The notes beneath the pieces were generated by a model, which was given only the letters and a program-made list of their open reading frames with translations, had not been told where the DNA came from and ran no database searches. The position numbers and the translations under genes are program-made. From positions 1 to 37,307 of the IMG/VR virus record IMGVR_UViG_3300036846_000020: a stretch of 37,307 nt of DNA. One strand, given 5' to 3'. Origin of the DNA: a virus. Of the stretch, positions 10,941-24,489 are shown in pieces (the stretch's first letter is position 1; each line of letters opens with the position of its first letter).

Positions 10941-11353
10941 CGCTGCTGCAGTTCATACGCGATCACGGTGACGTGCTCGAAGCCGATCTGCAGCGCGAGT
11001 ACGGCGTCGATCTGACCGACCTGTACCGGGGCACGCTGACGCTGCGACGTCTGCACGTGCTGATCGATCATCTGCCGCCCGAGTGCGCGACAGCGCGCGA
11101 AGTGGGTGACGTCGACGACGCGCTGACGATCTGGTCAGTCGAGCGTCTGCTGCTCGGTCGCATCGTCGACGAACTCGCGCTGCTGCGCTTCGAGTACGAA
11201 GCCGTGCACAGCGAGAAGGGCGCACAGCGCGACCCGCCCGAGAGCGTGCTGCCTGAACTCGACACGTCGTCGCGTGTCGTGCCGCTCGTGCGACCGACCG
11301 AGCTGGGCGAGTTCATGAAGGACTTCGAAGAGGGGAGCGACAGTGGCGACTGA
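10602..11353 (+). CDS. Tail assembly chaperone G-T fusion by -1 frameshift
   Basis: The -1 frame relative to G is open from well before the G stop to TGA 11351-11353. It encodes a T domain beginning LALLQFIRDHGDVLEADL, very like the start of T domains in other actinophages. A slip would give a 250-residue G-T protein. The T part has no start codon of its own close to the junction, as expected. The order major tail, G, G-T, tape measure is the canonical siphovirus layout. The preferred slip site is 10931-10937. Confidence 0.85.
10931..10940 (+). promoter_or_regulatory. Programmed -1 frameshift site A AAC CCT before TAG
   Basis: In the G frame the codons are AAC (10932-10934), CCT (10935-10937) and then TAG. 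Shifted back one base they read AAA and CCC, so both tRNAs can re-pair except at the wobble base. This fits the X XXY YYZ rule and lies against the stop codon, which prolongs the pause. A second run, G GGG GAG at 10910-10916, is an alternative, although only the first tRNA re-pairs fully there. Confidence 0.65.
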
Positions 11354-13367
11354 AGTCGGTACTGCCTATGTGACGCTGCTCCCGTCCGCGAAGGGCTTCG
11401 CGTCGAAGATGCAGAGCGAACTCGGCGGCGAACTCGGCGCTGCTGGCGCGAAGACGGGCGAGCAGTACAGCACGGGCGTCACGAAGACAGCGGGCAGCAG
11501 ACTCAAGTCGGGCTTCGGCAAGATATTCAGCGGCATCGGCTCGCTCGCTGCTCCCGTTGCGGCGTTCGCGACAGTCGCCACGGTGACCGACGTGCTGAAG
11601 AGCAGCATCGCTGGCGCTGAGCAAGTGCAGAAGGTCAACGCACGCACGACGAGCGTCATCAAGTCGATGGGCAACGCCGCGCACATCAGCGCGTCGGGCG
11701 TGAAAGACCTCGCAGACTCGATCGAGAAGAAAACCGCTGTCGATCATCTGGACATCCAGAGCGGCGCGAACCTGCTGCTGACGTTCAAGAACATCCAGAA
11801 CACAGCGGGCAAGGGCAACGACATCTTCGATCAGACGACCCAACTCATGACCGACATGAGCACGGCGATGGGTCAGTCGACGAAGAGCAGCGCGATCCAG
11901 CTCGGCAAGGCGCTGAACGACCCGATCAAGGGCATGACGGCGCTGTCGCGTGTCGGGGTGTCGTTCACTGCGCAGCAGAAGAGCCAGATCACCGCGCTCG
12001 AAAACAGCGGCAAGACAATGGCCGCGCAGAAGATCATCCTGAAGGAAGTCAAGGGCGAGTTCGGCGGCGCTGCTGCTGCTATGGCGACCCCCGCTGATCA
12101 CGCGAAGGTCGCATGGCACGGCTTCGAAGAGCAGATGGGCGCTGTGCTGCTCCCGCTCGTCGACAAGATCATGACGGCCTTCGCCGAAGCACTGCCCGTC
12201 ATCCTCGATTGGGCGAGCGCGTTCGGGCGCTACGTCGGCCCCGTGCTGAAGAAAGTCATCGGCTGGGTGAAGCAGTTCATCGACCAGTTCCAGCAGAGCG
12301 GCAAGCAGACGCAGAGCACGCGCGACGACATCATCGGGTCGCTGCAGGACATCTTGGGCGTCGTACGCGTCGTCGTGAAGATCATCGAGTTTCTGTGGGC
12401 GCACTTCGGCTCGACGCTGATGACGTACGTCGTCGGCACGTTCAAGAACATCATCACGATCATCGAAGCAGCGCTGAAGATCATCCACGGCGTGCTCGAC
12501 ATCGTGATGGGTCTGCTGACGGGCGACTGGTCGCGTGCGTGGCAAGGCGTGAAGGAAGTTCTGTCGGGCGTCTGGACGATCATCAAGACGCTGATCAGGC
12601 AGGCGATGCTGTACATCAGAACGCTTCTGAAGATCGGCTGGAAGGCGATCAAACTGATCTTCACAGCCGCGCTGAAGGGCATCTGGGCGCTGATCAAGTG
12701 GTACTTCCGTACGTGGGTGCGCATGTTCCTGGCGCTGCCGAAACTGCTCGCGAAGGCGCTCGCTGCTCTTGCGCCGCTGCTCGGGCAAGTGTTCAGAGCC
12801 GCATGGGCGCGTGCGTCGCAGTGGGTGCAGCAGGGCATCGCGAACGTGGTCAACGCCGTGCGTGCACTGCCGGGGAAGATACGCGCGCTCGGTGGGCTGC
12901 TTGCTGCTGCTGGTCGTGCAGTGATCCAGGCGTTCGTCAACGGGCTGCAGAACGCACCCGGCGTCGTCAGCAACATCGCGGGCAACGTGTGGGATGCGCT
13001 GAAGTCGCTCGTGAACAGCGCGATCGACAAGATCAACGGCGCTCTGGACTTCACGATCAGCCTGCCCGGTCCCGATGTGCACATCAACGCTGGGCACATT
13101 CCCCATCTGGCGCGCGGCGCACGTGCGACGAGCGGCACGCTCGCGATGATCGGCGAAGGGCGCGAGCCCGAGACAGTGCTGCCCGACTCGATGCTGAGCG
13201 GGCTGCTCGGTCGAGCAGCAGCAGCAGGCGGCGCGAACCGGCTGCGACTCGTCGTCGACGGCTGGGAGTTCAACGCCTACGTCGACGCTCGTGCTGATGG
13301 TCGCGTCTCGACGGCTGGGAACCTCGCCGCCGAGGGGAGGCGCGCATCATGGCCGTCTCGACGCTGA
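11343..13367 (+). CDS. Tape measure protein
   Basis: A 674-residue protein starting at GTG 11343, preceded by a GAGGGGAG ribosome site and overlapping the end of the T frame. It is rich in Ala/Gly/Lys with long helical stretches. The central hydrophobic region (about residues 280-520) contains several membrane-like segments, including runs around LLPLVDKIM and IWALIKWYF. An early segment with ISASGVKDLADSIEKKT resembles other tape measures. The C-terminus has an EGREPETVLP motif common near the end of these proteins. At about 1.5 angstrom per residue the tail would be near 100 nm. No lytic peptidase domain is visible. Confidence 0.92.
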   Translation: MATEVGTAYVTLLPSAKGFASKMQSELGGELGAAGAKTGEQYSTGVTKTAGSRLKSGFGKIFSGIGSLAAPVAAFATVATVTDVLKSSIAGAEQVQKVNARTTSVIKSMGNAAHISASGVKDLADSIEKKTAVDHLDIQSGANLLLTFKNIQNTAGKGNDIFDQTTQLMTDMSTAMGQSTKSSAIQLGKALNDPIKGMTALSRVGVSFTAQQKSQITALENSGKTMAAQKIILKEVKGEFGGAAAAMATPADHAKVAWHGFEEQMGAVLLPLVDKIMTAFAEALPVILDWASAFGRYVGPVLKKVIGWVKQFIDQFQQSGKQTQSTRDDIIGSLQDILGVVRVVVKIIEFLWAHFGSTLMTYVVGTFKNIITIIEAALKIIHGVLDIVMGLLTGDWSRAWQGVKEVLSGVWTIIKTLIRQAMLYIRTLLKIGWKAIKLIFTAALKGIWALIKWYFRTWVRMFLALPKLLAKALAALAPLLGQVFRAAWARASQWVQQGIANVVNAVRALPGKIRALGGLLAAAGRAVIQAFVNGLQNAPGVVSNIAGNVWDALKSLVNSAIDKINGALDFTISLPGPDVHINAGHIPHLARGARATSGTLAMIGEGREPETVLPDSMLSGLLGRAAAAGGANRLRLVVDGWEFNAYVDARADGRVSTAGNLAAEGRRASWPSRR

Positions 13368-15139: not shown

Positions 15140-16428
15140 CCCAGCCGCTCGGGCTGAAGCCCGCTGACGAAGCGACGTACGCCGCGTTCATCACGACGCG
15201 CAGTCATGACTTCGCGATCAGCGTCGACATCATGAAACTCGACCACACGGCGATCAGATCAGTGACTGATCAGTTCATCGACGGGCAAGTGAACCTTGCG
15301 AGCGGGCAGCCCGTCGAGCGGACAGCGACGTTCACCTTCTACGATCCCGACCGCTCGATGCACATCGATCCCGATACGCCGTGGGAGAGCGCGACGTTCG
15401 CCGATCGCATGATCCGCGTGCAGCACACCGTGAACGTGCCGGGGCTGGGTCGCATCGTCGCGACGCCGTTCGTCGGCCCCGTCACGAAGGTCAGCAGAGA
15501 CGGCGACACGATCGACGTCGAGTGCCAAGACAAGGCGTCTCTCGCGATCACGGGCACGTCGCCGCTGAAGTGCAAGAAGGGCATGGATGCTGTCGCTGCG
15601 ATCAGGCACGTCATGCAAGACGGCGCGGGCGAGAACAAGTTTCGACTGCCGAACGGGCTGAAGCGCAACCTGCACAAGACGTTCAATGTCGGCTGGACGA
15701 GCGACGCCGCGCCGTGGGTGGTCGCGCAGCGCATCGCAGCGCAGATCAATCATCAGTTGCTGTACTCGTGCGACGGGTATCTGACGCTGCGCCCACTGCC
15801 GCAGAAGGTCGCCGCGCTGTCAGTCAGCGGCACTGCTGTCACGACGTCGCCGCAGACTGACTTCGACGCGTCGAGCATCAGCAACATGGTGCGCGTCACG
15901 GGGAAACTCGCGCCGCCCCGAGCGAAGAAGGCGAAGCCGGGTGCGAAGCCTCAGCTCGAAACGCCGCCCACCACGATCAGCGCTGTCGCCGTCGCTGCGC
16001 CGACGCACCCGCTGTCGCCGAGCAGACTCGGGCGCAACGGCGTGTCGCGCTATCTGCCGACGATCATCGACGGCAGCACGTACAAGTCGCTGTCGCAGGC
16101 GCGCGCTCTCGCGACGACGACGCTGCAGCACGATCTGCCGCTGACGGTGGGCGTCACGCTCGACATGGTGCCCGTCTTTCATCTGGACGTCGGCGATCTG
16201 ATCAACGTGCAGACGCCAGTCGGGCGCGTCGTCGTGCGCTTCATCGAGGGCTCGATCCCGCTCGGCATCAGCGGCGACATGAGCATCGGTCAGACGCGAC
16301 GCGTCAGCGAGGGCCGTGGGCTGCGCACGAGCGGGCACACGACGCATCACGCAGCGACGAAGCAAGAGCGCAAGACGTACCACGCTGCGCTGAAGACGTG
16401 GCAGAAGAGTCATCACCATCATGGCTGA
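15136..16428 (+). CDS. Minor tail protein, baseplate hub-like
   Basis: A 430-residue protein if it begins at GTG 15136, which forms a GTGA overlap with the preceding stop; an in-frame ATG at 15103 would give 441. It contains segments typical of siphovirus hub or Gp44/XkdQ-like proteins: a beta-rich N-terminus with a TATFTFYDPDRSMHI stretch, the DTIDVECQDKASLAITG region, and a later LDVGDLINVQTPVGR strand pair. The last 40 residues are basic and His-rich and end SHHHHG. The role in the tail tip comes from position and this pattern. It overlaps the fibre gene by 8 bases. Confidence 0.7.
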   Translation: MTQPLGLKPADEATYAAFITTRSHDFAISVDIMKLDHTAIRSVTDQFIDGQVNLASGQPVERTATFTFYDPDRSMHIDPDTPWESATFADRMIRVQHTVNVPGLGRIVATPFVGPVTKVSRDGDTIDVECQDKASLAITGTSPLKCKKGMDAVAAIRHVMQDGAGENKFRLPNGLKRNLHKTFNVGWTSDAAPWVVAQRIAAQINHQLLYSCDGYLTLRPLPQKVAALSVSGTAVTTSPQTDFDASSISNMVRVTGKLAPPRAKKAKPGAKPQLETPPTTISAVAVAAPTHPLSPSRLGRNGVSRYLPTIIDGSTYKSLSQARALATTTLQHDLPLTVGVTLDMVPVFHLDVGDLINVQTPVGRVVVRFIEGSIPLGISGDMSIGQTRRVSEGRGLRTSGHTTHHAATKQERKTYHAALKTWQKSHHHHG

Positions 16429-19387
16429 GCGGGGCGAAGTTCACGCTGTCTCGTGGATGCCGCAGGGCGCTGATCTTGCTGCTGACGCGGGCGTCGGTGC
16501 GCTGACGATCACCGTCACGAACCCCGTCGACTTCGACGAGTTCGGCGGCACGCTCGCGATCAACGGCGTGCAGTACGACTACGACACAGTGGACATGGAC
16601 GCCGCCGTCATCACGCTGTCGCAGTCGACGACAGCAGCAGCGACTGCAGGCGATTGGGTCAACGTGATCGCGGGCGGTGTCGTCGCGATCGATTACGTCG
16701 CGTTCGTCTCGCTCGGCGACGGCGACGAACTCGAAGTGCCGATCGCGTACGCCGAGCGCGATCTGTGGCCCGAGGGCGACTACGACTCGCCCGTGCTCGT
16801 CGAGCTGGCAGACGACTTGGAGTCGATCGTCAGCGTGCCGGGTCGCACGCCGCTGCGCGACGGCACGTTCATCAACCCGAGCACGCTGCCCACGCCGACG
16901 ATCCCGCCCAGCGACGGGCTCGTGCCCACGAACGCGCCGACGAACGTCGTCGTCACGGGCGGCATCGGCGCGCTGATGATCCGCTGGACGCCGATCGCGA
17001 ACCACGATCCCGTGACGTACGACCTGCACGTGTGGCCGGTCAGTGGGTTCACGCCCAGCGCGTCGACGCTCGTCGTCTCGACAGCGGGCAGCAGTCACAC
17101 GCTGCGCCTGCTCGGCACGGGCTACGGCACCCCACCCGATCAGACGCTGCAGTACGACACGACGTACTTCGTACGCGTGATCGCACGCGATCTTGACGGG
17201 GCAGGCCCAGCGTCTGCTGAGGCGTCTGGGCAACTCGTGCGCATCAACAGCCCAGACATCGCTGCAGAGTCGATCACGGGCGATCACATTCAGGGCGGCA
17301 CGATCACGGGCGATCTGCTCGCGACTGACGTCGTGCTCGCGTCGACGATCAGCACGGGCAACGTCGACGACAACGGCAACATCGTCGGCGCGCGCATCGA
17401 CCTCGGCCCAGACGGGCTGAAGGGCTACGCGCAAGACGGGCATCAGGTACTCAACTTCCCGACTGACCCGAGCGACGACGCGTACATCGAAGCGCACATG
17501 CACATGCTGTCGGCTGACGTCGACGATCATCTGACGCTGAACGGCGTGAACAACGCTGTCAGCGCGAGCGCGTCGATCTTGCTCGCGAGCGGGGTGACAG
17601 CGCCGACGTCGCCGCCGAACATCGCGACGTCGTACGACACGGTGCAGCTCGACACGCACACGAAGATCGACGGCGGCTCGGGCAGTTTCGGAAGCATCGC
17701 GCTCGACCCGACGCAGATCGTGTCGCTCGTGTGGGATCAGGCGTTCAGCGTCTGGCAGGTCTTCCAGCAGCGCTCGAACGGCTTCAGACTCTGGCGCTTC
17801 AACCCTGACGGCTCGATCGCGCCGCAGAGCGGCAGCACGGCGGTCGTCGATTGGGTCGGTTCGTATCTGCAGACGACGGGCTGTCGCGGCGGCTGGCTCT
17901 TCAACTTCAACGGCACGTGGTATCTCTGGGACACGATCGTCGGGGGCGGGCGATACGGCATCGTGCCGAACTCGTGGATCATCAACACCGGGCAGACGCC
18001 GTTTCTGTCGTTCGACGAGAGCGCGCAGAGTCTGATGCTGTGCCAGAGCCCGACCGGCAACTCGCCGAAGACGATGCAGGTTCGACGCCTGCACACGGTC
18101 GCGTACGTCGGCGGCAACGCGCAGAACTGTGTCAGTGACTCGATCACGACGCTCCCGTCAGGGATGGGCCGCACGCACTCGCTCACGAGTTGCTTCTACG
18201 GCGCAGCCGACTTCGGCACTGCGCGCTACGTGGTCACGAACGACACGCAACTGCACGTGTACGTCAGCACCGCGACGACATGGCAGAACGGCGCGAGCAC
18301 CTTCCAAGAGTGGACCCAGAACGGCGCGGGCAAGGGGATGCATTGGGACGGCTCGAACTTCTGGTCAGTCGACGCGACCGGGCTGCTGACGAAGTACACG
18401 ACATGGACGTGGCCGACTGAGCCGTCGACGATCTGGATCGGCACATCGGCGTACGACAGCGACGCGACGGGCGGCAACCACGAGACGCCGGTCGGGACGT
18501 TCGCGAGTCTCGACAGCGCGAACGTGCGACGCGCGAAACTGAGCATCACGGTGCCGCCCACCCAAGACGCGGGCGGCACGGACGACCCTGACGTGTGGCG
18601 CGTGTACTTCGCTCGCACGAGCGGCGCAGTGCCGACTGCCAGCTCGCTGAAGTTGCAAGCGGGGATTGGGTCGCCGACTGCCTCGACGAGCACTGTCATG
18701 TCAGCAGACGCGACGGGCGTCGCGCCCGTTGGCGGCGTGTTCGGGCAGACGGGCGCAGTGAACAACTTCCCAGCAGGGAACCCCGCGAAGATCACTGACG
18801 GCGCGGGTAACACGATGATCGACGCATCGGGTCACGGGCTCGTCGGCATCCCCGGCGAAGTGCGCATGTACGCGGGTGCTGCTGCGCCCGTGGGCTGGCT
18901 GCTGTGCGACGGCTCGTCGCTCGTGCGCACGGCGTACCCGACGCTGTTCGCTGCGATCGGCACGATGTTCGGACTCGGCTCGAACTCGCCAGTCGGCACG
19001 ACGTTCAACTTGCCCGACATGCGCTCGCGACTGCCGCTCGGTGTCGGCCTCGCGGCCTCGCTCGGGCAGACCGAGGGCGGCGTGCAGTCGGGCAACGCGA
19101 TCGCGGGCAACCCGCCCCCCGATGACTCGACGCGCAGCGATCGCTGGTCGCACAACCACTGGCACAACGCGCAGTCGCCAGACGGCACGCTGAGCAACTC
19201 GAACGTGAGCCACGTCGGGAACACGACGGGCGCGGGCGGCTCGACGCAGAACCGCGTGTCGACTCTCGACGGCTCGGTGCAGGGCAGTCACACGCACAAC
19301 ATCACCGGGCACACGGCGACCGCTTCGGGGATCGTCACGGGAACTGTGCACGCGTACAGCGGGCTCAACTACATCATCCGCACGTGA
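16421..19387 (+). CDS. Tail fibre/receptor-binding protein with collar domain
   Basis: The largest gene, 988 residues. The N-terminal 160 residues are beta-rich and probably attach to the tail tip. Residues about 170-270 look like a fibronectin type III domain (PTNVVVTGG through VRVIARDLDGAG). A short segment around INSPDIAAESITGDHIQGG is typical of fibre trimerisation sites. The long middle (about 350-780) is Gly/Ser/Thr-rich with aromatic-flanked strands and may bind glycans. Residues about 812-880 match the phage tail collar domain, with VGWLLCDGSSL and the later FNLPDMRSRLPLGVG. The last 90 residues are His-rich and include HTH at 957-959, as in metal-binding short tail fibres. It is most likely the receptor-binding protein. 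Confidence 0.85.
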   Translation: MAERGEVHAVSWMPQGADLAADAGVGALTITVTNPVDFDEFGGTLAINGVQYDYDTVDMDAAVITLSQSTTAAATAGDWVNVIAGGVVAIDYVAFVSLGDGDELEVPIAYAERDLWPEGDYDSPVLVELADDLESIVSVPGRTPLRDGTFINPSTLPTPTIPPSDGLVPTNAPTNVVVTGGIGALMIRWTPIANHDPVTYDLHVWPVSGFTPSASTLVVSTAGSSHTLRLLGTGYGTPPDQTLQYDTTYFVRVIARDLDGAGPASAEASGQLVRINSPDIAAESITGDHIQGGTITGDLLATDVVLASTISTGNVDDNGNIVGARIDLGPDGLKGYAQDGHQVLNFPTDPSDDAYIEAHMHMLSADVDDHLTLNGVNNAVSASASILLASGVTAPTSPPNIATSYDTVQLDTHTKIDGGSGSFGSIALDPTQIVSLVWDQAFSVWQVFQQRSNGFRLWRFNPDGSIAPQSGSTAVVDWVGSYLQTTGCRGGWLFNFNGTWYLWDTIVGGGRYGIVPNSWIINTGQTPFLSFDESAQSLMLCQSPTGNSPKTMQVRRLHTVAYVGGNAQNCVSDSITTLPSGMGRTHSLTSCFYGAADFGTARYVVTNDTQLHVYVSTATTWQNGASTFQEWTQNGAGKGMHWDGSNFWSVDATGLLTKYTTWTWPTEPSTIWIGTSAYDSDATGGNHETPVGTFASLDSANVRRAKLSITVPPTQDAGGTDDPDVWRVYFARTSGAVPTASSLKLQAGIGSPTASTSTVMSADATGVAPVGGVFGQTGAVNNFPAGNPAKITDGAGNTMIDASGHGLVGIPGEVRMYAGAAAPVGWLLCDGSSLVRTAYPTLFAAIGTMFGLGSNSPVGTTFNLPDMRSRLPLGVGLAASLGQTEGGVQSGNAIAGNPPPDDSTRSDRWSHNHWHNAQSPDGTLSNSNVSHVGNTTGAGGSTQNRVSTLDGSVQGSHTHNITGHTATASGIVTGTVHAYSGLNYIIRT

Positions 19388-19400
19388 AGGGAGACAGCGC

Positions 19401-19676
19401 ATGACGTACAGCACGATCGATCAGATCGCCAGCTCGGCATCGCTGAAGAACCGCGCCGCTGCTGCAGCAGCAGAGCAGGGGCAGAGCGACCCGACCGGCT
19501 GGGTCGATCGCAATATCTGGGTGCTCGCTGCTGAGCCGGGGTGGGCGGCAGCATGGGAGTCAGCAGAGGCCGCGCTGACGCTCGATCAGAACCCAGACAC
19601 GGGCGTTCGTCCGTCTGTCATCACCGACGCGATGATCCTGTCAGCGGTGCAGGCGATCATCGCTGCCACGCCATGA
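19401..19676 (+). CDS. Small conserved phage protein, unknown function
   Basis: A 91-residue protein with a GAAGGGAG ribosome site. It opens with TYSTIDQIASS, has an Ala-rich helix, and contains WVDRNIWVLAAEPGWAAAW and ITDAMILSAVQAI. From memory, similar proteins sit between tail-fibre and lysis genes in several actinophage groups, but I know of no assigned function. The helical, Trp-rich pattern gives no enzyme signature. It overlaps the following membrane protein gene at ATGA. Confidence 0.8.
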   Translation: MTYSTIDQIASSASLKNRAAAAAAEQGQSDPTGWVDRNIWVLAAEPGWAAAWESAEAALTLDQNPDTGVRPSVITDAMILSAVQAIIAATP

Positions 19677-20032
19677 CGCCGCGCGCAGTCGTCTCGGGCG
19701 CGCTGCTGCTGTACTGCGCTGGCCTCTTCACGCTCGCGGCGTTCCCGACGAGTGACGTCGATTGGGCCGAGTGGGTCGTCATCGTGCTGTCGATCGTCGC
19801 TGCGATCGGGCTCGTCGCGCAGATGTCGCCGCGCATCCGAGTGCCGGGTGAAGAGTTCGCGTATCTCGTGACCGGCTGGGCGGGCATGTTCTCGCTCTGC
19901 CTGTACTTGATCGACTCGACGGACCCCAACTACGTGCAAGTGCGCATCACGCTGCTGCTGCTCGCTGGCTCGCTCGGCGCGTACGCCGCGTTCATCGTGC
20001 GCGACACGCCCAGAGAAGGGGGGCCGCTGTGA
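19673..20032 (+). CDS. Four-segment membrane protein, holin candidate
   Basis: A 119-residue protein starting in an ATGA overlap. Four hydrophobic segments are visible at about residues 6-24, 31-51, 62-81 and 90-109, separated by short charged turns, with a charged C-terminal tail. It is the first of two membrane proteins directly before the endolysin, so a holin role is likely: it would permeabilise the membrane to time lysis. A four-segment topology is less common than two or three but does occur. It ends in a GTGA overlap with the next small membrane gene. Confidence 0.7.
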   Translation: MTPRAVVSGALLLYCAGLFTLAAFPTSDVDWAEWVVIVLSIVAAIGLVAQMSPRIRVPGEEFAYLVTGWAGMFSLCLYLIDSTDPNYVQVRITLLLLAGSLGAYAAFIVRDTPREGGPL

Positions 20033-20154
20033 ACGACAATCTGACGCAAGTGCTCGTGCTGCTGATCACGACGATCGGCACGATCGGGCTCGCATACGTG
20101 AAGTTGCGAGCACCCAGCGCAGACAAGAGCGAGAGCGAGACGACAGATGACTAG
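20029..20154 (+). CDS. Single-segment membrane peptide, second holin or antiholin candidate
   Basis: GTG 20029 to TAG 20154 encodes 41 residues. It has one hydrophobic segment (about residues 7-24, beginning LVLLITTIGTIGLAYV) and then a charged Lys/Glu/Ser/Asp tail. The start lies in a GTGA overlap and the end overlaps the endolysin start by 8 bases, so it is translationally embedded in the lysis cassette. Paired membrane proteins before a lysin often act as holin and antiholin or holin-like accessory. Confidence 0.68.
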   Translation: MNDNLTQVLVLLITTIGTIGLAYVKLRAPSADKSESETTDD

Positions 20155-21352
20155 TCCCGTCCCCGGCAAGCAGCAGGGCACCCCGTACGGGCAACGCGGC
20201 GCGTACTGGTCATGTCGCAAAGACTCGCGCGGCTGGGGCATCCACACGGGCGTCGACTACCCCGCGCCAGTAGGCACAGCAGTCGTCGCTGCGCGACCCG
20301 GCAAAGCGGTGTACACGAACCACGGGAGCGCGTTCGGTGCCCATCAGCTCGAAGTCGTCGTCGTCGGCGGCACGCGCGACTTCTACGCGCACATGCGCAC
20401 TCGCAGCGTGAACGACGGCGCGACCGTGCGAGCGGGTCAGAAGATCGGCGAAGTCGGGAGCGAGGGCAACGCGACCGGCCCGCATCTGCACTTCGAGCGA
20501 CACGCGACGTCGACCGGCCCGTGGTCGTGCGACATCGTGCGCGACCCGAAGACGAGCATCGACTACACAGCGAAGGTGAAGCCCAAGATGACCGATCTGA
20601 GAGTGATCCACTGCTCGATGCAGTTCAGCGATACGAAGAGCCAGCACGCGCACGACGCCAAGGCGATCTTCGACTATGCGAAGCAGCGCGGCGCGCTCTT
20701 CGTCACGGGCACGGAAGCGGGTGCCCATCAGCCCGATCTGCGCGACGCGCTGACAGCGAACGCGAAGCGCACGGGCTACAGCATCAACGCGCACAAGTGG
20801 GGCGACTGGACAGCGACGAACACAGCGCTGGCGAAGGTCGTCGGCAAGGGGTACGAAGGCCCGTTCATCGACGGCACGACGGGCATCGACGCAGCGCACG
20901 GCGCACACTCGCCGCGTGGGATCACGTGGCAGACGGCAGAAGTGAAGGGCATCGTCGGCGCGATCACGATCGGGTCAGCGCACTATCTGACGCAGCGCTC
21001 GATCGAAGCGTCGAAGACGACGAACCAACCGCTGATCAACGGCATCGCGCAGTGGGGCAAAGCGAAGGGCAAGGGCAGCGCGCTCGTGCTGTTCAACGCC
21101 GACGTGAACATGGACGACGAGAAGCGCGACCCCTTCTCGGGCGGGCCGTTCACGACCTGCTGGGACGAACTGCACAAGTACCCAGCGACGCACGGGCGGG
21201 ACGTGCGACACGGCTCGACGATCGACGTCAGCGCGTCGTACAACGCCGACAAGCGCGTCAGCGCGAAGAGCGCGCAGTCACTCGACGACAGCAGACTGCA
21301 ACTGTTCACTGATCACTTCGCGATCGAGGTCGTGTACAGCGTCGCTGACTGA
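20147..21352 (+). CDS. Endolysin: M23 peptidase plus EEP-like domain
   Basis: A 401-residue protein at the end of the lysis cassette. Residues about 1-140 form an M23 (lysostaphin-type) metallopeptidase: His33 and Asp37 in HTGVDYPAP, His82 in FYAHM, and His113/His115 in GPHLHFE are the expected zinc and catalytic residues. It would cut peptide cross-links of peptidoglycan. The C-terminal 250 residues look like an endonuclease/exonuclease/phosphatase (EEP) fold: VIHCSMQF start, Glu190 in GTEAG, His279 in GSAHYL, Asp319 and Asn321 in FNADVN, Asp389-His390 in TDHFAIEV. An M23-EEP pair is unusual for a lysin. The second domain could cut DNA or a phosphoester, or be a repurposed binding domain. 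There is no signal peptide. Confidence 0.82.
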   Translation: MTSPVPGKQQGTPYGQRGAYWSCRKDSRGWGIHTGVDYPAPVGTAVVAARPGKAVYTNHGSAFGAHQLEVVVVGGTRDFYAHMRTRSVNDGATVRAGQKIGEVGSEGNATGPHLHFERHATSTGPWSCDIVRDPKTSIDYTAKVKPKMTDLRVIHCSMQFSDTKSQHAHDAKAIFDYAKQRGALFVTGTEAGAHQPDLRDALTANAKRTGYSINAHKWGDWTATNTALAKVVGKGYEGPFIDGTTGIDAAHGAHSPRGITWQTAEVKGIVGAITIGSAHYLTQRSIEASKTTNQPLINGIAQWGKAKGKGSALVLFNADVNMDDEKRDPFSGGPFTTCWDELHKYPATHGRDVRHGSTIDVSASYNADKRVSAKSAQSLDDSRLQLFTDHFAIEVVYSVAD

Positions 21353-22920: not shown

Positions 22921-23007
22921 GTGCAAGACGCTGAGAGTCAGCGTCAGCATGGGACGTCGATCGAGTCAGTCGAGAGACGACCCGCACACCGAGATAGGGA
23001 GCAAGCA

Positions 23008-24489
23008 GTGAGCACAGCAGCAGCAGAGAAGCAGCAGCACGTGAGGATCACGAACGCGAAGACGACAGCGAAGAGTCGTGTCGCGATCTATCTGCGCATC
23101 AGCAGCGACCGAGCTGGCGACGAACTCGGGGTGAAGCGGCAACTGTCGCGCTGTCGCTCGCTGATCGCGGCGAAGGGGTGGACCGAAGTCGCGATCTACC
23201 AGGACAACGACACGAGCGCAGCGGGCAAGCAGAAGCGTCCCGCGTACGACGCGATGTTCGACGACGTGCGCTCGGGTCGGGTCACTGTCATCGTCGCGTG
23301 GTCGTTCGATCGGCTGACGCGCTCGATGCGTCAACTCGAAGACATCATCGAACTGCACGAGAAGACGGGCGTGAACATCGCGACCGTCGACGGCGAACTC
23401 GATCTGTCGACCGAGACGGGGCGCATGGTCGCCCGCATCCTCGCCGCCGTCGCTCGCGCCGAGTTGGAGTTTCGTCGCAAGCGTCAACTGAGCGAGCGCG
23501 AGCAGAAGGCGAAGATGGGGCACGTCAACGGGGGTGGGTCGCATCGCCCGTTCGGGTTCGAAGACGATCGCGTCACCCATCACGCCGTCGAGGCCGAACT
23601 GATCAGGGAAGCAGCGAAGCGCGTGCTCGCGGGGGAGACGCTGAGCAGCATCGTGCGCGACTTCGCAGCGCGCGGGGTGAAGAGCCCGAGCGGGCACCCG
23701 CTCACGCAGCAGCGACTGAGGCTCGTGCTGATCAGCGCGCGCACGAGCGGTCGTCGTTCGCACTGGCAAGCAGTCGAGGGCGAGCAGCGCCCGCTGCTCC
23801 CGCCGATCGTCGGCAAAGCAGCGTGGAAGCCCATCGTGAAGGTCGCTGACAGCGATCGTCTGCGCACGCTGCTGACAGCGACGTCGCGTCGACTGAACAC
23901 GAACAGCACGGCGCGCGTGCATCTGCTGCCGGGGTTCCTGCACTGCTCGACGTGCAAGCGCCGCATGGTGTCGAGTCACGCGGGCGGCTATGCGCGCTAC
24001 TCGTGCGAGCAAGTGCCGGGTGCTGAGAAGTGCAAGAAGATCATCACCGCGAAGCACGTCGACGAACTCGTGACGACGCAAGTGCTCGCGATGATCGACA
24101 CGCCGAAGTACCAGCGTCTGCTGCACAAGCGCACGGGCGTCAGCGCGAAACTCGTGCAGTCGCTGCAGCGCGACGAGCAGCGTCTGCTCGAACTCGTGCG
24201 CGAGCGCGAGAGCGGGCTGCTCGAACTCGACGAGTGGCGCGAGTCGCGCGACGTCGTGAAGCAGCGTCGCGACGAGACGAAGGCGCTGATCGAGTCTGCT
24301 GTGCGCGACGACGCGATGCGTGCGCTGCTGACAGGCGAGGGATCGATCGAGGCGCGCTGGGAAGCGATGACGCTCTCCCAGCAGCGGGCAGTCATCGACA
24401 GCGCGGTACAGACGATCCTCGTGTCGCCTGCAGCGAACGGCGGGCGTGTGTTCAACCCCGAGCGCGTCGAGGTAGTCTGGCGCGCCTGA
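23008..24489 (+). CDS. int: Large serine recombinase (integrase)
   Basis: A 493-residue serine integrase. The N-terminal catalytic domain has YLRISSD with nucleophile Ser32, the GVKRQ segment with the conserved Arg, and SFDRLTRS with further active-site Arg residues; the long E-helix follows in VARAELEFRRKRQ. The recombinase domain includes the RPFGF segment. A zinc ribbon (HCSTC through KCKK) and a coiled-coil-like Glu/Arg/Leu region follow, as in phiC31- and Bxb1-type integrases. GTG 23008 is chosen because the GAGATAGGGAGC leader at 22991-23002 lies six bases before it; a frame from 22921 would touch the attP. It would insert the genome at an attB and, with an unidentified directionality factor, excise it. 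Confidence 0.95.
   Translation: MSTAAAEKQQHVRITNAKTTAKSRVAIYLRISSDRAGDELGVKRQLSRCRSLIAAKGWTEVAIYQDNDTSAAGKQKRPAYDAMFDDVRSGRVTVIVAWSFDRLTRSMRQLEDIIELHEKTGVNIATVDGELDLSTETGRMVARILAAVARAELEFRRKRQLSEREQKAKMGHVNGGGSHRPFGFEDDRVTHHAVEAELIREAAKRVLAGETLSSIVRDFAARGVKSPSGHPLTQQRLRLVLISARTSGRRSHWQAVEGEQRPLLPPIVGKAAWKPIVKVADSDRLRTLLTATSRRLNTNSTARVHLLPGFLHCSTCKRRMVSSHAGGYARYSCEQVPGAEKCKKIITAKHVDELVTTQVLAMIDTPKYQRLLHKRTGVSAKLVQSLQRDEQRLLELVRERESGLLELDEWRESRDVVKQRRDETKALIESAVRDDAMRALLTGEGSIEARWEAMTLSQQRAVIDSAVQTILVSPAANGGRVFNPERVEVVWRA

Follow-up and report, generated by a model that had tools for sequence, protein, structure and literature searches.

The domains listed in surveys of phage endolysins are peptidases, amidases, glycosidases and binding domains. 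Nuclease or phosphatase domains go unmentioned in the main texts of the mycobacteriophage endolysin survey, of PhaLP and PhaLP 2.0, and of an M23 review. In actinobacteriophages, M23 endolysins such as LysA of mycobacteriophage Giles are modular proteins encoded in the lysis cassette, and they pair the M23 domain with amidase domains and other modules (PMC3314691). The gene described here shares the M23 domain, the modular plan and the position in the cassette. However, its M23 domain is joined to a domain of the EEP superfamily.

The EEP superfamily includes TDP2, DNase I-like enzymes, ExeM and sphingomyelinase C. The domain that we describe has in common with them the fold and the E/H/D-x-N/D-H motifs, but its identity to the solved members is about 12-16%, and the Asn of the first motif is replaced by Cys. 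Unlike the known enzymes of the superfamily, the EEP proteins reported here as lysin-associated are fused to a lysin or encoded beside it. Gp5 of Streptomyces phage Yosif is likewise an EEP protein, from a cultured actinophage. In contrast, it is free, and its gene lies two genes before the terminase and not at the lysin. This protein (L110:1675-2373, MH248947) is annotated as hypothetical and carries EEP motifs.

Two other kinds of system are related by their mode of expression. In CTP1L and other two-product endolysins, one lysin gene gives two products (PMC4777826, PMC9430671), as may happen here. Internal starts add a binding domain in the CTP1L type, whereas the second part here is an enzyme, and one of the gene families described below (family B) would use a +1 frameshift instead. 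Frameshifting of the +1 type at stop codons is known from prfB (CUU UGA C) and Listeria phage PSA (PMC5009743). The slippery codon immediately precedes the stop there, as it would in family B. Unlike those sites, the one in family B is in an endolysin gene, and it is a prediction. According to a citation in PMC10274946, a lysin encoded by overlapping genes is already in the literature, so recoded lysins as such are not new.

The fused gene and its lysis cassette

We analyzed a stretch of 37,307 nt from a soil phage (IMG/VR record IMGVR_UViG_3300036846_000020), here called the window. This 37.3-kb virus contig has 66% GC and encodes terminase, portal, protease, capsid, tail, tape measure, serine integrase, repressor, RusA and primase. 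The phage is temperate, with the serine integrase gene downstream of the lysin. Its host is probably actinobacterial, because the large terminase is nearest (about 56-58%) to those of phages of Curtobacterium, Arthrobacter and Gordonia. Two scans of bacterial and archaeal genomes turned up no relative, and hence no prophage host. The features of the region are the following.

16421..19387, + strand: tail fibre/collar gene, upstream of the lysis cassette (PHROG tail/collar)
19673..20032, + strand: 119-aa holin-like protein, four predicted transmembrane segments (ORF from an internal ATG; hydropathy)
20029..20154, + strand: 41-aa holin-like protein, one predicted transmembrane segment (ORF; hydropathy)
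20147..21352, + strand: M23-EEP fused endolysin gene, 401 aa (intact ORF; phage-like GC3 throughout)
20240..20506, + strand: M23 peptidase domain, residues 32-120, with H33, D37, H82, H113 and H115 (PF01551, 9.5e-21; residues checked)
20573..21349, + strand: EEP-fold domain, residues 143-401, 259 aa (AF2 pTM 0.84; TDP2 Z 22.8; conservation), with E190, H279, D319, N321, D360, D389 and H390, and with C156 where relatives have Asn
20585..20587, + strand: internal in-frame ATG (M147), a possible internal start suggested by sequence and alignment
22921..24489, + strand: serine integrase, downstream of the lysin (phrog_95, 9e-86)

The order of a tail fibre gene, two small transmembrane genes and the M23-EEP gene is that of a lysis cassette. 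From their hydropathy and position, the two small genes are putative holins. With both directly upstream, the gene stands where an endolysin gene would be expected, which agrees with the initial annotation. A 91-aa gene at 19401-19676 precedes the first holin-like gene, and a similar-looking gene occupies a comparable place in another contig (L083, 6966-7253). Across the M23-EEP ORF, GC at the three codon positions is 0.60/0.50/0.86, matching other genes of the phage.

The M23 domain matches PF01551 with 74.3 bits against a cut-off of 28.7 (E 9.5e-21, residues 32-120). Its zinc-binding motifs are intact (H33-TGV-D37, H113-L-H115, plus H82), and its PDB matches are lysostaphin and LytM chains. 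Many M23 matches in PHROG are tape measures. A location of this domain in the tail was rejected, considering that the window has a separate tape measure gene at 11343-13367.

We counted 57 loci in viral contigs that encode relatives of the M23 domain; at 47 of these the identity is 57-75%. Only the window gene continues in the same frame into an EEP domain. In the others, the M23 domain is followed by a Lys-rich tail, a coiled coil, or a beta-rich or PG-binding-like module, named by eye. The expectation that lysins normally carry a wall-binding domain is thus not borne out by the close M23 relatives, which end in varied modules such as the Lys-rich tail. At four loci (L017, L023, L026, L031), a lysin with this tail is followed by a gene that by eye resembles a VanY/M15-type peptidase.

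The EEP domain and its active site

Residues 143-401 of the window protein gave no sequence match in Pfam, PHROGs, PDB profiles, plasmids or 50,697 phages. We built an AlphaFold model of the domain with four relatives from viral contigs (pTM 0.84). Foldseek returned 220 matches below 1e-3, and the best solved structure was TDP2 (Z 22.8, 2.9 A over 225 residues). All the leading solved matches are EEP enzymes, including Bacteroides EEP proteins, nocturnin and neutral sphingomyelinase (Z 21.3). Matches among viral structures include giant-virus EEP proteins and one from Streptomyces phage Yosif. TDP2 is the nearest fold only, with other EEP enzymes close behind, and the predicted fold does not separate a nuclease from a phosphatase or phospholipase. 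The initial annotation had predicted an EEP-type fold for residues 145-401, in one ORF with M23; the structure model and Foldseek give this fold and not another.

The EEP catalytic set is present in the window domain (E190, H279, D319-V-N321, D389-H390). All the catalytic residues proposed beforehand, in the M23 domain as well as here, were found at their positions. Together with D360, the EEP residues are invariant in a five-sequence alignment of the window family (family A), so the acidic and His residues have not been lost in relatives. Across 23 EEP proteins of five families, none of E, H, D and N varies, and the D-H pair is kept in nearly all. PF03372 matches 11 of these 23 proteins (best 5.1e-11), and it does not match the window domain.

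The first EEP motif presents a substitution. It reads H155-C156-S157 in the window versus H-N-S in the four family A relatives, as placed by sequence alignment and not by superposition. The window domain therefore has Cys156 in place of the canonical Asn of the superfamily. This Asn also varies elsewhere, being Ala in one protein (L027) and His in family C. Since it varies in other members, we keep the assignment to the EEP fold and lower only the claim of activity. With catalytic residues invariant in family A but Cys at position 156, the window domain is likely, but not certain, to be active.

EEP genes beside lysins in related phages

In uncultivated, probably actinobacterial phages, many close M23 lysins have a separate EEP-type gene directly downstream. 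We sorted the EEP genes into divergent families: A (the window family), B, C, D and E. Profile comparison relates families B and D (E 8e-7) and is weak for A versus C and A versus B. The model of family C (pTM 0.91) matches EEP structures at Z 25.3. In 50,697 annotated phage records, tblastn with families B, C, D and E returned nothing at 1e-3, and the window domain likewise had no match there. A second family D protein, searched against annotated phages at E up to 10, gave chance-level matches only.

Among 54 EEP contigs, which include seven near duplicates, the EEP gene lies within 350 bp after a lysin in 30 (24 M23, 6 CHAP-like). The rest are the window fusion, 12 contigs with the gene directly after a prohead protease (all family C), six with a lysin elsewhere on the stretch, and five showing none in the DNA read. 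Counted from the lysins, 47 contigs carry a close M23 lysin, and in 29 of them the DNA read includes an EEP gene at some position.

Because we first came upon families B to E next to M23 lysins, the choice of families is biased; the position within each family is an independent observation. Family B, scanned for by itself, follows a lysin in 10/10 cases. Family C does so in 13/29 and follows the prohead protease in 12/29. In family D, four of eight genes come after a lysin and one directly before it; this reversed order, with the EEP-D gene directly 5' of an M23 lysin, is found at L107:8046-9537. Three family A relatives (L001, L004, L005) are not by a lysin, and L001 adjoins terminase genes.

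In the 12 contigs with a prohead protease neighbor, the family C gene sits between the protease and a capsid gene (L043/L095, L050/L091, L052/L087, L078-L080, L082, L084, L089, L090, L092, L093). CHAP-like lysins precede family C genes in L081, L083, L088, L094, L099 and L101. The one in L083 shares its C-terminal module (WQKVTKAT) with many M23 lysins; therefore, catalytic domains appear to swap on a constant tail.

In family D, most of the members examined begin with a hydrophobic segment that resembles a signal sequence, and five aligned proteins are strongly basic (pI 11.6-12). These two properties point to an action of family D outside the cytoplasm. Proteins of families A, B, C and E mostly have a near-neutral or acidic pI.

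Coupling of the two enzymes

In seven of eight distinct family B lysins, the last sense codon is TTT, before a TGA or TAG stop, and the EEP region is open in the +1 frame. The TTT sites are at the 3' ends of the lysins in L018, L029, L033, L036, L039, L041 and L051. In L033 the EEP core is not preceded by any start codon, and in L029, L041 and L051 no codon is a plausible EEP start. A GTG could serve as an ordinary start in L018, L036 and L039. Of the Phe codons in four family B loci, TTT makes up 0/125, 0/129, 1/60 and 1/35; it is less rare in others. The neighboring lysin DNA of these loci has diverged to 45-78% identity. UUU is among the best-shifting codons at a prfB-type site (PMC10274946), and UUU_U is found in a minority of prfB genes (PMC5009743). 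The family B junctions resemble the prfB site, and a programmed +1 frameshift likely yields a lysin-EEP fusion in this family.

The window gene needs no frameshift to join the two parts. The sequence AAGGTG lies about 9 nt upstream of the ATG at 20585, the point where stand-alone relatives begin. A separate EEP product from this internal start is thus possible. The in-frame fusion rests on one record, and one base change at the junction would be enough to give two adjacent genes instead.

Role and substrate of the EEP domain

The explanation that we favor, and consider moderately probable, is an accessory hydrolase of the EEP type that is delivered alongside the endolysin when the cell lyses. 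The M23 domain would cut peptidoglycan cross-links. Once holins open the membrane, the C-terminal EEP domain, a metal-dependent phosphoester hydrolase, would reach its substrate. The window gene would be one form, the fused one, of an arrangement that recurs in uncultivated, probably actinobacterial phages. In them, the EEP hydrolase would be made with the endolysin as a neighboring gene, a fusion, a probable +1 frameshift product or a secreted protein. The fold, the conservation of the active site, the gene neighborhood and the reading frames are as observed above. From them we infer an active EEP domain, its action outside the cytoplasm during lysis, and the occurrence of the frameshift. The 12 family C contigs with the gene by the prohead protease and the family A relatives placed elsewhere count against a role in lysis. 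The missing Asn of the first motif, in the window domain and in family C, counts against activity.

This hydrolase could act on DNA or on the envelope. One reading, which is somewhat less likely than not, is that the domain works as a nuclease outside the cell, where it clears host DNA at lysis, lowers viscosity and frees virions. Its nearest fold, TDP2, is a DNA phosphodiesterase, family D looks secreted and very basic, and ExeM is an example of a secreted EEP nuclease (PMC6085458). Conversely, sphingomyelinases and mannosyl-6-phosphatase score nearly as well in structure comparison (Z about 19-24), and the near-neutral or acidic character of most proteins in the other four families does not favor a nuclease. 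Moreover, a non-specific DNase in the cytoplasm before lysis would endanger phage DNA that is not yet packaged.

An envelope substrate avoids this conflict with phage DNA. In this reading, which is possible though somewhat doubtful, the EEP domain cuts an envelope phosphodiester and helps the lysin to breach the actinobacterial envelope. The candidates are a teichoic or other anionic wall polymer, a phospholipid or a lipid-linked precursor. Coupling to a wall lysin by fusion or frameshift would bring the EEP domain to the envelope. Among the structures that match the folds are EEP sphingomyelinases, human neutral sphingomyelinase with Z 21.3 for the window domain and 23.6 for family C. Against it, we know of no EEP teichoicase. 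A wider claim seems rather unlikely: that EEP phosphodiesterases are an unrecognized "co-lysin" class in some actinobacterial phages, tied to the endolysin by fusion or +1 frameshift and attacking a non-peptidoglycan polymer or lipid of the envelope. We hold DNA and envelope substrates about equal, with a slight preference for nucleic acid in view of the basic family D, which looks secreted, and of the precedents of secreted EEP nucleases (PMC6085458).

It is unlikely that the EEP genes are late-operon cargo or selfish nucleases without a role in lysis, landing after the lysin, after the prohead protease or between terminases. Several locations within one family and the Yosif gene near the terminase would suit such elements. 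However, the in-frame fusion, the frameshift-type junctions and the signal-like sequences couple EEP to the lysin or to export; the same neighbor recurs in five divergent families, and the catalytic residues are conserved. Finally, an assembly or sequencing error that joined a lysin gene to a separate EEP gene would suit the single record and the junction KVKPK/MTDL, which resembles a lysin end then an EEP start and is one base from a stop codon, but it is improbable, given that frame and codon bias are continuous across the ORF and that related phages also appear to fuse both parts, by frameshift.

An accessory hydrolase at lysis is our preferred explanation. Dozens of uncultured relatives keep an EEP gene beside the lysin, which suggests that an unrecognized extra enzyme takes part in the lysis of their hosts. 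With a recurring EEP partner, the known activities in phage lysis would be extended by a new one. The probable frameshift, if true, would extend the known cases of phage recoding by a +1 site within an endolysin gene. The EEP partners would be candidates for enzymes that act on actinobacterial envelopes or on released DNA, and they raise the question of what besides peptidoglycan must be cut for a phage to escape.
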